Below are positions 21,155-32,592 of a DNA stretch of 49,701 bases, one piece after another; position 1 is the stretch's first letter, and every line of letters begins with the position of its first letter. Source of the stretch: Ferruginibacter sp. (GTDB lineage Bacteria > Bacteroidota > Bacteroidia > Chitinophagales > Chitinophagaceae); contig JANYFT010000454.1 in the NCBI GenBank assembly GCA_025359625.1, positions 1 to 49,701 on the forward strand, given 5' to 3'. The position numbers were made by a program, and so were the translations under genes. The notes under the pieces are model-generated. The model made no database searches. It was not told the origin of the DNA and saw only the letters and a program-made list of their open reading frames with translations.

Positions 21155-22084
21155 TCATATTTTAGAAAGATAATACTGCAGAAACCTTTTAACCGCATTG
21201 GTTTGCATCAACACTTTTTGAAAGATAAAAATGCCGGTTATGGCACAGGCAACACCCGCCACTACATCCACTACATAATGATGGCTTGTATAAATGGCGG
21301 CAAACCAAATGCCCGCCATTACAATAGCAAATACAATATTTATCCAGCCCATTTTTTTTTGCATGCCATAGTACAATACAATTGGTGGATAGGAAGAATG
21401 CAAAGAAGGCATTGCAGCAAAAACGTTGGAGCTTTTTGCATAAATGCTATTGAAAATACCGGCGTTAAAATAAGCATCAAACCTTTGTAAACCTGCACTG
21501 TTACCTGGTGTAGCGGCATTAAACACAGCGCCATATTTTTGAAAATACCAGGGCGGGGCTGCGGGGTAAACATAATAAATAATAAATCCAATCATATTTA
21601 CCAGCACAAAGGTTAAAGAGAACTGTAAAAATATTTTTTTGTCTTTAAAAAAAAGATAAGCTGCAAATGCCAGGGGAACCGGTATCCAGCATAAATAAAA
21701 TATACCCGTCATTATATCCAGAAAAGTATTCGTATGCTGTAACCAAAATTCGTTGGGGGTTATCAGGGTGCCATTTTGATGAAGGCCAAAAAGCGAAAGC
21801 TCTGTTTGATGTAATTGTAAAATACGTACATGGTTATAAACATAGTTAGGAAATGCTTTCATGTAATCAAACAGGACCCAATAGACGATAAAAATAGAGA
21901 ATGCAATGATAAATTTTCTGCTGGTAGCAGTACTGAAATAGCCAAAACAAAAAATCCCTGCCAATACCAGTTGATCTGTTTTGAAGCCAATTAAAAAAAA
22001 GGAAACCAACAGGTACAAAATTATAACACAAAATATTGCCGCTATATTTTTTAAGGAATAAAAATCAGCTTTGGTATTTATCAT
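21155..22084 (-). CDS. PAP2-superfamily enzyme, candidate inositol-phosphoceramide synthase
   Basis: 309 residues from ATG 22084, which overlaps the preceding stop by 4 bases. The longer frame from 22135 lies inside that gene. About eight membrane helices. It carries the AUR1/PAP2 signatures YPAAPPWY (173-180), AAMPSLHSSYP (PSLH at 226-229) and the catalytic SHHYVVDVVAG (267-277). AUR1-like enzymes move the inositol-phosphate head from phosphatidylinositol to ceramide. Because the run also encodes inositol-phosphate, phosphatidylinositol and ceramide enzymes, this specificity is preferred over a plain lipid phosphatase. It is last in the operon. Function is inferred from motifs and context. 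Confidence 0.82.
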   Translation of the reverse strand: MINTKADFYSLKNIAAIFCVIILYLLVSFFLIGFKTDQLVLAGIFCFGYFSTATSRKFIIAFSIFIVYWVLFDYMKAFPNYVYNHVRILQLHQTELSLFGLHQNGTLITPNEFWLQHTNTFLDIMTGIFYLCWIPVPLAFAAYLFFKDKKIFLQFSLTFVLVNMIGFIIYYVYPAAPPWYFQKYGAVFNAATPGNSAGLQRFDAYFNAGIFNSIYAKSSNVFAAMPSLHSSYPPIVLYYGMQKKMGWINIVFAIVMAGIWFAAIYTSHHYVVDVVAGVACAITGIFIFQKVLMQTNAVKRFLQYYLSKI

Positions 22085-22713
22085 TGACTTTTTTTGGGTT
22101 CCCTGGTAAAGCCCGATCTTAAAATTATATCCCATAAAGAACTACTTACACCAAAGCCCTTTTCAGGATCCTGGTAGTGATGCAACATGTGGTGTTGTTT
22201 TACCCTCTTCATAATACCGCTTTTAAAATTATGGTGGTGCATGGCATAATGCAGCATATCATACATTAAATATCCTGATAAAAATCCCGGAAAAAATGCA
22301 AATAACAACTGTTGTGTTAACAACAAAGCAAATAAAAAATAGAACGCAGTTGCTAAAGGGATACTAACTGAGGGCGGTAATACCAGGCGTTTTTTATCTC
22401 TTGGATAATCATGATGAACACCATGAAAAATAAAATGTATTTTTTTACCAAATTCAGAAGTTGGATGATAATGAAAAATAAACCTATGCATTACATATTC
22501 TGTAATAGTCCAAACGCCAAGGCCAATTAAAAAATACAATCCAAAATTTAACAGGCTCACCCCTGCTGAAAAAGCTCTGTAAATAAAAATAAATATGGCG
22601 GGTACAAAAATAAATAATGGCACAGCAAAGTGAACTTTAGAAAGATTTTCTATTAAGTTACTTTTAAACATTCTGATAGACTCTTCTGAATTTGAAATAT
22701 AATTTTTTTTCAT
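22081..22713 (-). CDS. Fatty-acid-hydroxylase superfamily (FA2H/SCS7-like) membrane enzyme
   Basis: 210 residues, four membrane helices and a full set of histidine boxes: HRFIFHYH (76-83), HFIFHGVHH (93-101), HYAMHHH (155-161) and HHMLHH (174-179). The spacing, with HYHPTSEFGKKIHFIFHG, matches fatty-acid 2-hydroxylases of the SCS7/FA2H type, which hydroxylate the alpha carbon of the ceramide acyl chain with a di-iron centre and O2. The cytochrome b5 domain of the eukaryotic enzymes is missing. Its 4-base overlap with the PAP2 enzyme suggests 2-hydroxy inositol sphingolipids. Carotenoid hydroxylase is an alternative, but less fitting here. Confidence 0.82.
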   Translation of the reverse strand: MKKNYISNSEESIRMFKSNLIENLSKVHFAVPLFIFVPAIFIFIYRAFSAGVSLLNFGLYFLIGLGVWTITEYVMHRFIFHYHPTSEFGKKIHFIFHGVHHDYPRDKKRLVLPPSVSIPLATAFYFLFALLLTQQLLFAFFPGFLSGYLMYDMLHYAMHHHNFKSGIMKRVKQHHMLHHYQDPEKGFGVSSSLWDIILRSGFTREPKKSQ

Positions 22714-22739
22714 TGCGCTGCTAATTTAAAATGCTAAGG

Positions 22740-23279
22740 TCAAATTTTAAGCCGTTCTTTTACCACAGAATGAGATGCAGGATCTATACCTGTAAGTTCC
22801 ACATATTCAACATTGGGCGACCAGAATGTACCCCCTTTAACTTCAATATAGATCCGGTTTAATATCACCTGCTTTTGATTAATGCTGGTATAAACATGGT
22901 ATTGGTTATCTGCCCCCATCATTAAATACATTTTATATTTTTTGTACGATACAAAATTCAGTTCATATTTATTTGACCCAATCTCTTTTGCTTTTACCCC
23001 GTAAGCAAATTTTCTTTGTATATAACTAAGGTCTTCCATTTGACCTTTCTCCTGGTACCTTATCCAAAACATATGTATCGGTTGTTCCTTATCTACAAAC
23101 CCATTTTTATAATTCAATTCGCAAACAATGGTATTTGTATTTGGCGTGCGTTGCAAAAAAAACAATTGTTTTGCGTTTCCGTCTGGCACCGGAAAAGTAG
23201 TAACCTGTGCTATTGCAAAGTTAAATACAACCTGCCCAATGATAATTATTGTAATAAAAAATAACCGGCTTCTAATCAT
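22740..23279 (-). CDS. DUF4833 exported protein
   Basis: 179 residues from ATG 23279 (MIRSRLFFITIIII), which gives a proper signal peptide ending near FAIA-Q. The longer frame from 23324 would overlap the previous gene. Conserved features: LFFLQRTPNTNTIVCELNY, PIHMFWIRYQEKGQ and the C-terminal EYVELTG. No catalytic motif known. It begins 10 bp after the phosphatidyltransferase stop and recurs in this kind of lipid cluster, so it may be a periplasmic partner in inositol-lipid handling. That role is inferred from position. Confidence 0.78.
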   Translation of the reverse strand: MIRSRLFFITIIIIGQVVFNFAIAQVTTFPVPDGNAKQLFFLQRTPNTNTIVCELNYKNGFVDKEQPIHMFWIRYQEKGQMEDLSYIQRKFAYGVKAKEIGSNKYELNFVSYKKYKMYLMMGADNQYHVYTSINQKQVILNRIYIEVKGGTFWSPNVEYVELTGIDPASHSVVKERLKI

Positions 23280-30866: not shown

Positions 30867-32074
30867 GCTCTTTTTGATTTTAATAATGGCACTTTTAATT
30901 TGTAGGAAACTTTTTTTATTTTTTCTACCGCATAATCAATTTGTTTAAAAGAATGTGTAGCCATTAGCGAAAAACGGATCATAGAGGAATCGCTGCTAAC
31001 AGCAGGAGATACTACCGGGTTTACAAAGATGCCTTCATCCATCAGCATTTTCGCCATTAAAAATGTTTTCTCGTTATCCCTTACAAAAATGGGGATAATG
31101 GGAGATTCTGATAAACCAATATCAAAACCTGCTTTCTTAAATGCTTCCAGCGCATAATTGGTATTTGCCCATAACTTTTCAATTCTTTGAGGTTCGTTTT
31201 TTAATACCGTCAATGCAGCTAAAGCACTGGCGGTGGCAGCAGGGGTAATACTTGCACTAAATATTAATGAACGGGCATGATGTTTTAAATATTCTATTAT
31301 CACTTTATCTGCAGCAATAAAACCACCGATAGATGCCAATGATTTACTAAAAGTCCCCATAATGAGGTCTACTTTATGCGTAATATTAAAATGAGCTGCG
31401 GTACCCTGCCCGGCAGGACCCAGTACGCCCAAAGAATGTGCATCATCTAAAAAAATAGAGGCATTATATTTTTTGGCCAAAGCGGCTATTTCATCCAATT
31501 TGGAAATGTCACCTTCCATACTAAATACGCCATCGGTAGCTATTATTTTAAATGCGTCGTAAGGTACGTTACTCAATAATTTTTCTAGATGGGCCATATC
31601 AGAATGGCCATACTTATATAATTTAGAAAAAGATAAACGGGCACCATCAATTATACAGGCATGGTTATATTCATCAGAAAATATATAATCGGTTCGTCCG
31701 CCAAGGGCAGATAAAACCCCTACATTTACCTGGTAGCCCGTGCTAAACACCAATGCGGCTTCTTTGCCTACAAATTGTGCCAAAGCTTCTTCGAGTTCCA
31801 GGTGCAAATCAAGCGTTCCATTTAAAAACCGAGAACCTGCACAGCCACTTCCGTACTTATCAATGGCTTTTTTACCAGCCTCTTTTACTTCGGGGTGGTT
31901 GGTTAAACCCAGGTAACTGTTTGAACCAAACATCAACACCCTTTTACCTGCAATTATCACTTCTGTATCCTGGTCACTTTCAAGCGGCCTGAAAAAAGGA
32001 TAAATGTCGGCTGATTTCAAATTTTCAGCAGTCTTAAATGCTGATACTTTTTCTAGCAAGGTTTTATTAGTCAT
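30863..32074 (-). CDS. spt: Serine palmitoyltransferase (alpha-oxoamine synthase)
   Basis: 403 residues, PLP-dependent fold type I. Features: [35 protein letters not shown]211 and H213 in [11 protein letters not shown], and the PLP lysine K244 in [12 protein letters not shown]. It condenses serine with an acyl-CoA to 3-ketosphinganine, the first step of sphingolipid synthesis. Relatives such as KBL and BioF share these motifs. Assignment as SPT rests on the long C-terminal tail ([12 protein letters not shown]) typical of Bacteroidota SPT annotations and on the ceramide genes overlapping it downstream. It is 77 bp after the MarR-type gene. Confidence 0.9.
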
Positions 32075-32151
32075 TGCAGTGTTTTAAGTGTTTTCCTTAA
32101 GCGATATAATTACAAAAAATATTGGTCTTGTATTCTAATCAACAGTATGGC

Positions 32152-32592
32152 CTATTTGCATTTTTCCTGAATTTTTGCCAGCACACACATACAGGTTTCT
32201 ATATCTTTTTCATTGATGCCTTCTTTTAAAATTCCATCCTGGCCCAAAAATTTATTGTGCATCATATCAATAATAGATTTACCGGTATTAGTTAATTCAA
32301 TTACATTTTTTCTTCTGTCACCAGCAACAGGCAAGCGTTTTACAAAACCCTTTTCTTCTAATATATCAACAGATCGCAGAATGGCCGATTTGGTTTTATC
32401 CATTATAGTGGCAATATCCTGTTGTATCATTTCTTTTGTTTTACTTCTGGAGATATAATACAGGACTCCCAATTGTTCAAAAGTTATATCCTTGGTAATT
32501 CCAGAAAACGTTCCATTAATTGTTTTCAACAGTAATTTACCTGTGTGAACAATCATAAATCCAAGTGTATCTGGCATTTCTTTACAGTCCAT
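32152..32592 (-). CDS. MarR-family transcriptional regulator
   Basis: 146 residues, winged helix with MarR layout: helix FEQLGVLYYISRS, recognition region QQDIATIMDKTKSAILRSVDILEEKGFV, and the wing PVAGDRRKNVIELT. It is the first gene of the minus-strand run and 77 bp upstream of spt. Its promoter contains an inverted repeat that overlaps the -7 box, so it probably represses itself and, by read-through, the lipid operon. MarR proteins respond to small lipophilic or phenolic ligands. A lipid intermediate is a plausible signal, but this is speculation. Confidence 0.9.
   Translation of the reverse strand: MDCKEMPDTLGFMIVHTGKLLLKTINGTFSGITKDITFEQLGVLYYISRSKTKEMIQQDIATIMDKTKSAILRSVDILEEKGFVKRLPVAGDRRKNVIELTNTGKSIIDMMHNKFLGQDGILKEGINEKDIETCMCVLAKIQEKCK

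Follow-up and report, generated by a model that had tools for sequence, protein, structure and literature searches.

Can one bacterial operon hold every step of inositol sphingolipid synthesis? In the literature consulted, the sphingolipid genes of Bacteroidota are known mainly from gut species and are scattered there. In Bacteroides thetaiotaomicron, serine palmitoyltransferase (SPT) is BT_0870, the head-group genes are BT_1522-1526 (PMC9246714), and the reductase BT_0972 is not clustered with SPT (PMC9278070). Here, we analyzed a 49,701-nucleotide stretch of DNA from Ferruginibacter sp. (contig JANYFT010000454.1, our C246; hereafter the window), which belongs to a draft genome of 4.97 Mb that is 93.6% complete. 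An earlier note, made from the sequence alone, had described 12 consecutive genes of the window as a complete route to inositol phosphoceramide and had set them against Bacteroides, where the ceramide genes lie apart from the head-group cluster, a contrast that agrees with the published placements. We conclude that the run is very probably one operon whose products would build inositol phosphoceramide, starting with serine, acyl donors, and glucose-6-phosphate, a reading in which both the enzyme activities and the co-transcription are deduced from sequence. The arrangement is widespread, not unique, and it unites what would be the entire pathway at a single locus, in genera of which strains are in culture.

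Gene order and predicted chemistry

The run consists of 12 open reading frames (ORFs) on the minus strand, read from position 32592 to position 21155. Spacing is 77 bp at its widest, between the MarR-type gene and SPT, followed by -4 bp at both SPT/GNAT and GNAT/reductase, 24 bp before the gene for myo-inositol-phosphate synthase (MIPS), 0 bp at MIPS/PgpA, -4 bp at both PgpA/GtrA and GtrA/DUF5686, 17 bp before the gene for phosphatidylinositol-phosphate synthase (PIPS), 10 bp at PIPS/DUF4833, 26 bp at DUF4833/hydroxylase, and -4 bp between the hydroxylase and the AUR1/PAP2-type gene (hereafter AUR1-like). The ORF coordinates thus reproduce the run, its maximal spacing, and its five 4-base overlaps as first described. 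For these values, DUF4833 was taken to start with the ATG at 23279 and the AUR1-like gene with that at 22084; the mechanically longest ORFs of both begin farther upstream, with larger overlaps. At its start, the run is separated by 423 bp from the next same-strand gene (an aldo/keto reductase), and at its end a convergent gene lies 187 bp away. Scans for sigma-70-like promoters (41 sites versus 50.5 expected) and for terminators (9 versus 8.9 expected) remained at chance level, and the TTTG/TANNTTTG promoter pattern had 0 sites versus 5.8 expected. No RNA family reached its gathering score, and a search for tRNAs found none.

In the proposed route, SPT would form 3-ketosphinganine, the GNAT protein would N-acylate it, and the reductase would then reduce the keto group, which is the acylation-before-reduction order proposed for Caulobacter (PMC11087976). 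MIPS would supply inositol phosphate, PIPS would load it onto CDP-diacylglycerol, the PgpA-type phosphatase would yield phosphatidylinositol, and the AUR1-type enzyme would transfer phosphoinositol to ceramide. The Scs7-type hydroxylase would probably add a 2-hydroxyl to the N-acyl chain. The GtrA, DUF4833, and DUF5686 proteins probably take no part in head-group chemistry and would most likely handle or deliver the finished lipid.

Evidence for the ceramide half comes from curated models, structures, and gene context. SPT exceeded its NCBIfam cut-off, and SPT entries led its matches in the Protein Data Bank (PDB), with the runner-up at 309 bits. No curated NCBIfam model names the GNAT protein or the reductase; PDB searches returned no informative match for the former and nothing useful at 1e-12 for the latter, in which GASGFLG and YGRSK are present. 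A tblastn search of plasmids with the GNAT protein yielded 45 records, of which 44 span 80% or more of the query. Four loci (Sphingomonas, Escherichia coli yghO, Pseudomonas, and Rubrobacter), hand-picked from 15 listed of the 45, were opened. All four lie outside Bacteroidota and contain SPT, GNAT, and reductase homologs within ~7 kb. The GNAT homologs are full length, 34 to 37% identical, and no more than ~6 kb from an SPT-type gene, and the reductase homologs, which lie equally near, are 22 to 29% identical, the Sphingomonas one being cut and matching only in part. On the Rubrobacter plasmid, the three are adjacent and ordered as in the window. Within the window's family, SPT and GNAT genes were together in 12 of 12 loci from genomes without the BT-type PIPS (L108-L119) and were joined by the reductase in 10, one of the 12 (L113) stopping at a contig edge; all three were together in each of five genomes in which the two halves are split (L120-L124). 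Because homologs and family loci keep them near SPT, homology and context link the GNAT protein and the reductase to the synthesis of sphingolipids, and we infer that they are ceramide enzymes of the bCerS and CerR types.

The same three enzyme types, two of them putative in the window, occur in Caulobacter and other bacteria (PMC11087976, PMC11324152, PMC11334938). CerR is periplasmic in Caulobacter. A simple scan of the window's reductase detected no hydrophobic stretch. An earlier statement cited in PMC11334938 holds that SPT, bCerS, and CerR are not near one another in sphingolipid-making Bacteroidota; the two families studied here are a counter-example, in which the three genes are usually close together. 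The annotation of the Sphingomonas and E. coli plasmid loci includes LptF/LptG and an acyl carrier protein, whereas the window's run has neither and continues with inositol genes. The E. coli yghO region (L248, plasmid NZ_MG591698.1), with an SPT-type enzyme, the acyl carrier protein, an epimerase, an acyl-AMP ligase, and LptF/LptG, resembles a sphingolipid-type set.

Turning to the head-group half, MIPS matched PDB entry 7nwr, which we take to be BT_1526, the Bacteroides MIPS, far above the next distinct sequence (236.8 bits). PIPS exceeded the cut-off of the BT_1523-type model and has the catalytic motif DX2DGX2AR...GX3DX3D at residue 79. The AUR1-like protein had NF052609 (phosphoinositol dihydroceramide synthase) as its sole NCBIfam match. 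Relative to BT_1522-BT_1526, the window has the same order MIPS-PgpA-GtrA-PIPS-AUR1 (PMC9246714, PMC8791184), into which DUF5686, DUF4833, and the hydroxylase are inserted; DUF4833 and the Scs7-type hydroxylase are additions, and the ceramide genes lead the same run. All enzymes of BT_1522-1526 but BT_1524 have been characterized (PMC9246714). BT_1527, which lies beside that cluster and has a carboxypeptidase-regulatory domain, is probably the counterpart of DUF5686; each of the two kinds of inositol cluster has homologs of it (carboxypeptidase-regulatory-like) and of BT_1521 (LPG-synthase-like) in its vicinity (PMC9246714). The GtrA protein may matter for the lipid pathway. A mutant of BT_1524 had less inositol phosphoceramide and more phosphatidylinositol in one study (PMC8791184) and lipids unchanged by thin-layer chromatography in another (PMC9246714).

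Nearly every assignment tested agrees with the complete route put forward in the earlier note. Gene-by-gene assignment by hidden Markov models placed SPT and PIPS over curated cut-offs; it left the AUR1-like protein under its own, and the GNAT protein and the reductase keep their places by homology and context (Table 1).

Table 1. Genes of the run in reading order, with positions in the window and the evidence for each call.
Feature	Position	Strand	Evidence
MarR-type regulator, perhaps of this operon; slot variable in relatives	32152..32592	-	Pfam MarR_2 3.4e-11
Serine palmitoyltransferase (SPT)	30863..32074	-	NF047600 668.3 bits, cut-off 640; PDB 8guh/3a2b 535 bits
GNAT-fold bCerS-type N-acyltransferase, putative ceramide synthase	29745..30866	-	Acetyltransf_1 21.9 bits, cut-off 20.7; plasmid homologs
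CerR-type extended SDR reductase, putative 3-keto reduction	28765..29748	-	Epimerase 5.4e-30; homologs near SPT and GNAT homologs
myo-Inositol-phosphate synthase (MIPS)	27415..28740	-	NAD_binding_5 9e-105; PDB 7nwr 555.7 bits
PgpA-type phosphatase, putative BT_1525-like phosphatidylinositol-phosphate phosphatase	26956..27414	-	PF04608 2.3e-38; position as in BT_1526-1522
GtrA-type membrane protein, BT_1524-like	26582..26959	-	PF04138 1.3e-15
DUF5686: carboxypeptidase-regulatory domain and predicted outer-membrane barrel, Omp85-like in model	24018..26585	-	PF18939 9.8e-50; Foldseek
Phosphatidylinositol-phosphate synthase (PIPS), BT_1523 type	23290..24000	-	NF052561 394.5 bits, cut-off 350; catalytic motif
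DUF4833: all-beta domain after hydrophobic N terminus	22740..23279	-	PF16117 1.9e-48; model pLDDT 93.4
FA2H/Scs7-type hydroxylase, putative N-acyl 2-hydroxylase	22081..22713	-	PF04116 2.8e-17; Scs7 4zr1/4zr0 E ~4e-31
AUR1/PAP2-type putative phosphoinositol dihydroceramide synthase	21155..22084	-	PF14378 1.3e-25; NF052609 326.6 bits, cut-off 480

Spread in relatives and exchange of head-group genes

We surveyed 194 genomes of the window's family (Chitinophagaceae, the window's genome included) and 101 genomes of a second family, calling SPT at E <= 1e-150 and PIPS at E <= 1e-30; all such matches also passed the curated cut-offs. The first family has SPT in 50 genomes, PIPS in 40, and both in 36. 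Synteny across Chitinophagaceae, which the earlier note had raised as a check, was borne out: the two genes lie within 10 kb in 25 of these 36 genomes (17 genera), 10 to 50 kb apart in four (one genus), and farther apart or on other contigs in seven, of which G429 and G368 look like contig breaks. In the second family, 43 genomes have SPT and 22 have PIPS, and PIPS is within 10 kb of SPT in 22 of 22. A first, phylum-wide search at a loose threshold gave mostly weak matches; the cut-off was exceeded in 6 of 247 genomes, one of them the window's own.

A further set of named loci comprised the best 80 of at least 595 stretches from at least 571 relatives, so it leans to close kin; it overlaps with a second set of relatives' loci (set B), some contigs being the same, and the two are not independent. 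Fifteen of the 80 were set aside because PIPS lies less than 9 kb from the locus start, although two of these still show SPT. Of the 65 loci that extend far enough upstream, 59 have SPT in the PIPS run. These 59 also contain GNAT (54), reductase (56), MIPS (50), PgpA (59), GtrA (59), DUF5686 (57), DUF4833 (57), hydroxylase (53), and AUR1-like (58) genes; the hydroxylase is in none of the six loci without SPT. Carriers among the best 80 include Ferruginibacter, Segetibacter, Niastella, Chitinophaga, Pedobacter, Nubsella, and Chryseosolibacter, and loci from Sediminibacterium and Hymenobacter show the head-group set but no SPT. The words Chitinophaga and Pedobacter are absent from the main text of PMC9246714.

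Chance clustering was ruled out by the recurrence of the arrangement across genera and in two families. Assembly artefact or contamination was ruled out by the same run in five Ferruginibacter loci (L146, L147, L148, L150, and L155), with PIPS 81 to 91% identical and MIPS undetected in two. Among the matches listed, the closest named relatives of PIPS are Ferruginibacter assemblies, at 88 to 91% protein identity. The MarR-type gene is present where the earlier note had placed it, but it is not a fixed member of the run. Directly upstream of SPT, 52 set-B loci have a MarR-type gene (3), a TetR-type cluster (6), an AraC-type cluster (8), a contig edge (1), or something else (34), as classified by Pfam on one member per cluster.

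Distribution of the hydroxylase follows that of SPT. We defined the operon type by E < 1e-70, a threshold drawn at a visible break (2.6e-72 versus 6.2e-46 in the first family and 4.0e-77 versus 2.2e-45 in the second), and treated the remainder as a paralog. The operon type occurs in 33 of 194 and 36 of 101 genomes, and SPT is present in 33 of 33 and 36 of 36 of these; counted by genus, SPT accompanies it in 20 of 20 in the first family (P = 1e-12). The paralog (~40% identical; 97 of 194 and 11 of 101 genomes) is unlinked to SPT (P = 0.62 and 0.75). Since 17 of the 36 second-family genomes with the operon type lack a BT_1523-type PIPS, the hydroxylase tracks the ceramide half and not this inositol half. 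The hydroxylase and SPT lie apart in g12 and g220 genomes. The 210-residue protein has no Pfam domain besides PF04116 and keeps the histidine boxes HRFIFH, HFIFH, HH, HYAMHH, and HHMLHH. Ceramide phosphoryl-inositol of Sphingobacterium spiritivorum carries 2-hydroxy acids. This lipid was reported for that species in work cited in PMC9246714, and myxobacteria are a known source of FA2H relatives among bacteria (PMC10002949). With FA2H/Scs7 2-hydroxylases, including the myxobacterial ones, the window's protein shares the catalytic domain and histidine boxes (PMC10002949); it differs in that its gene shares a putative operon with those for SPT and an AUR1-type enzyme.

Other lipid-modifying genes were noted alongside. 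The host genome has a second Scs7-type hydroxylase of the paralog type, 40% identical to the operon one (L239:9540-10247, contig C99), and, at a site outside the operon, a desaturase containing a Pfam sphingolipid delta-4-desaturase domain (L238:4247-5248, contig C181). Of the 194 family genomes, 43 have a desaturase of this type over the cut-off, accompanied in 35 by SPT or PIPS; one match under the cut-off (G377) was dropped. In three relatives, the desaturase gene lies within the operon, between the hydroxylase and AUR1-like genes (L158:9911-10888, called by Pfam, and L064:6405-7382 and L072:13957-14949, called by similarity; L165 is the contig of L064).

Head-group genes can be exchanged while most of the remaining run stays in place. 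We opened loci of three genera, g136, g209, and g217, because the hydroxylase there lay without a BT-type PIPS. All three g209 loci read SPT-GNAT-reductase-MIPS-DUF5686, then an NTP transferase, a gene X, a CDP-alcohol transferase, an LPG-synthase-like gene, a HAD gene, and a PfkB-type kinase, then DUF4833-hydroxylase. By Pfam, the genes between DUF5686 and DUF4833 include the alternative inositol module (NTP transferase, CDP-alcohol transferase, and HAD) proposed for B. vulgatus and Prevotella (PMC9246714). The LPG-synthase-like gene comes with it, as that paper notes near both clusters. A further g209 genome, G435, lacks SPT. Both g136 loci have the same NTP transferase, CDP-alcohol transferase, and HAD genes, convergent behind the ceramide genes, DUF5686, DUF4833, and hydroxylase (the chassis). 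The window has the BT type, whereas g209 and g136 have the alternative one and retain MIPS along with the chassis. Two g217 loci (L251 and L252) hold SPT, GNAT, DUF5686, hydroxylase, GtrA, and DUF4833 genes around another CDP-alcohol transferase, with no MIPS and no reductase in their 20-kb stretches and no BT_1523-type PIPS in their genomes; in a third (L253), DUF5686 and DUF4833 were also undetected. The GtrA gene was found beside other head-group versions in g136, g217, and g12 loci and was not seen in the three g209 loci. Together, the g209, g136, and g217 loci indicate that head-group genes vary while SPT, GNAT, hydroxylase, DUF5686, and DUF4833 mostly persist, with exceptions.

DUF4833, DUF5686, and other genes of the window

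The DUF4833 protein has hydrophobic residues at positions 6 to 24. It is fused to the C-terminal end of PIPS in 18 of 43 set-B loci (separate in 16 and missing in 9) and in 55 of the best 80 named loci (separate in 22 and missing in 3). In L160, the only fusion scanned, a simple scan shows a hydrophobic stretch between the PIPS and DUF4833 parts, at the place taken by the signal-like N terminus in the separate protein; this position suggests that the DUF4833 domain is probably on the periplasmic side. Its structural model (predicted local distance difference test [pLDDT] 93.4) is mostly beta and had no PDB match at E <= 0.001, so it offers no mechanism from structure. A purely sphingolipid role was ruled out, because 5 of 42 genomes have DUF4833 in other surroundings, with neither SPT nor PIPS. 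A purely inositol-related role is unlikely, because L251 and L252 retain the gene without MIPS or PIPS nearby.

For DUF5686, the model is less certain (pLDDT 79.9; predicted template modeling [pTM] score 0.56). Foldseek found 124 matches at E <= 0.001, the best being BamA/TamA barrels (probability 1.00; E = 2.5e-8); template modeling (TM) scores by query length are just 0.25 to 0.30 among the 50 matches listed, and the TamA barrel aligns with a TM score of 0.64 at a root mean square deviation of 7.0 A. A Pfam scan detected DUF5686, CarbopepD_reg_2, and CarboxypepD_reg and no POTRA family at E <= 0.001, and we therefore call the protein Omp85-like in its fold model and do not file it as a member of the Omp85 superfamily. 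One relative has an extra gene, for an LpxR-type outer membrane protein, separating DUF5686 from PIPS (L072:10922-11968). The literature searched yielded no publications on DUF4833 or DUF5686 and no description of the fused operon or of the PIPS-DUF4833 fusion; it covered few subscription journals, which makes this weak evidence of absence.

Elsewhere in the window, positions 16338-17986 hold a methyltransferase gene, which we take to resemble arsenite methyltransferase, followed by a gene of the low-molecular-weight phosphatase family, possibly an arsenic pair. Two GMC oxidoreductase genes and a gluconate 2-dehydrogenase subunit 3 gene lie at 38083-42115 amid sugar isomerase-like and transporter genes.

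Alternative readings and biological meaning

The two halves could instead be adjacent but separate pathways, the inositol genes making phosphatidylinositol and its derivatives, the ceramide genes serving another head group, and the AUR1-like enzyme not using ceramide. Several observations weigh against a single pathway. The score of the AUR1-like protein is under the NF052609 cut-off, as were all matches in six genomes searched with that model (324 to 345 bits, in four of the six); five family genomes have the halves apart; and the co-occurrence counts come from related genomes. Moreover, four family genomes (G296, G327, G405, and G276; L070, L071, L088, and L097) have the head-group set and an AUR1-like gene without an SPT over the cut-off, and the AUR1-like enzyme may use another acceptor, at least there. 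(All four genomes also have the desaturase.) We nevertheless consider separate pathways very unlikely, given that 58 of the 59 named loci with SPT have the AUR1-like gene in the same run, that this protein is the host genome's only NF052609 match at E <= 1e-10, and that its PSLH and HHYVVD stretches, presumably catalytic, are intact. It is extremely unlikely that the SPT-like enzyme yields a different amino-acid condensation product (capnine, the sulfonolipid base, for example) and that the lipid made is no sphingolipid. Cysteate acyltransferases share the enzyme family, and one (28eh) is in the match list at 257 bits, but the protein passes the SPT model, matches SPT structures at about twice that score, and stands apart from five further family members in the genome, each at 337 bits or less.

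If a single operon does make inositol phosphoceramide, the roles of its accessory genes are still to be weighed. The hydroxylase might modify C4 of the long-chain base, free fatty acids, or other lipids instead of C2 of the N-acyl chain, in keeping with the breadth of PF04116, which also spans other lipid hydroxylases, and with the 17 of 50 SPT genomes of the first family that lack the operon type, a further count that sits poorly with the proposed route. This, too, is unlikely, since the only PDB matches at E <= 0.01 are to yeast Scs7 (4zr0, E = 4.6e-31, over residues 18 to 198), named ceramide very long chain fatty acid hydroxylase, and the operon type was not found without SPT in the 194 and 101 genomes. 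For DUF5686 and DUF4833, a role in inositol-lipid synthesis itself, such as holding PIPS or modifying phosphatidylinositol, is a real if lesser possibility. It would fit the frequent PIPS-DUF4833 fusion, which also occurs in two of four genomes with PIPS but without SPT. It fits less well with the retention of both genes in L251 and L252, and in g209 and g136, where PIPS has been replaced.

Handling or delivery of the finished lipid is the most likely function. How sphingolipids reach the outer membrane is described as not known in PMC11324152, which points to second copies of LptC/F/G in the Caulobacter cluster; the window's run has no Lpt genes and does include the Omp85-like protein. As a conjecture that is rather unlikely to hold in full, DUF5686 and DUF4833 could be the missing outer-membrane delivery of Bacteroidota sphingolipids, with an Omp85-like barrel placing the lipid, a DUF4833 domain passing it on from the periplasm (tethered, in many species, by its fusion to PIPS), and both belonging to a fixed chassis that takes exchangeable head-group modules. 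A close paralog of DUF5686 in a genome without SPT (L144, 1059 bits) speaks against such a dedicated role, as do the five genomes with DUF4833 and neither SPT nor PIPS.

B. thetaiotaomicron and Caulobacter have already revealed the chemistry of the two halves; what is new is the fused, exchangeable operon, an uninterrupted series of genes that would suffice to make a membrane lipid like that of fungi. The operon makes testable the enzyme of 2-hydroxylation, the roles of the head-group partners, and the path of sphingolipids to the outer membrane, and it could serve as a compact cassette for producing inositol phosphoceramide in a laboratory host. The swap of inositol modules within the same chassis supports the alternative inositol route, so far unproved. 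The main value of the operon lies in two unassigned genes, DUF5686 and DUF4833, which accompany the pathway when head groups change.

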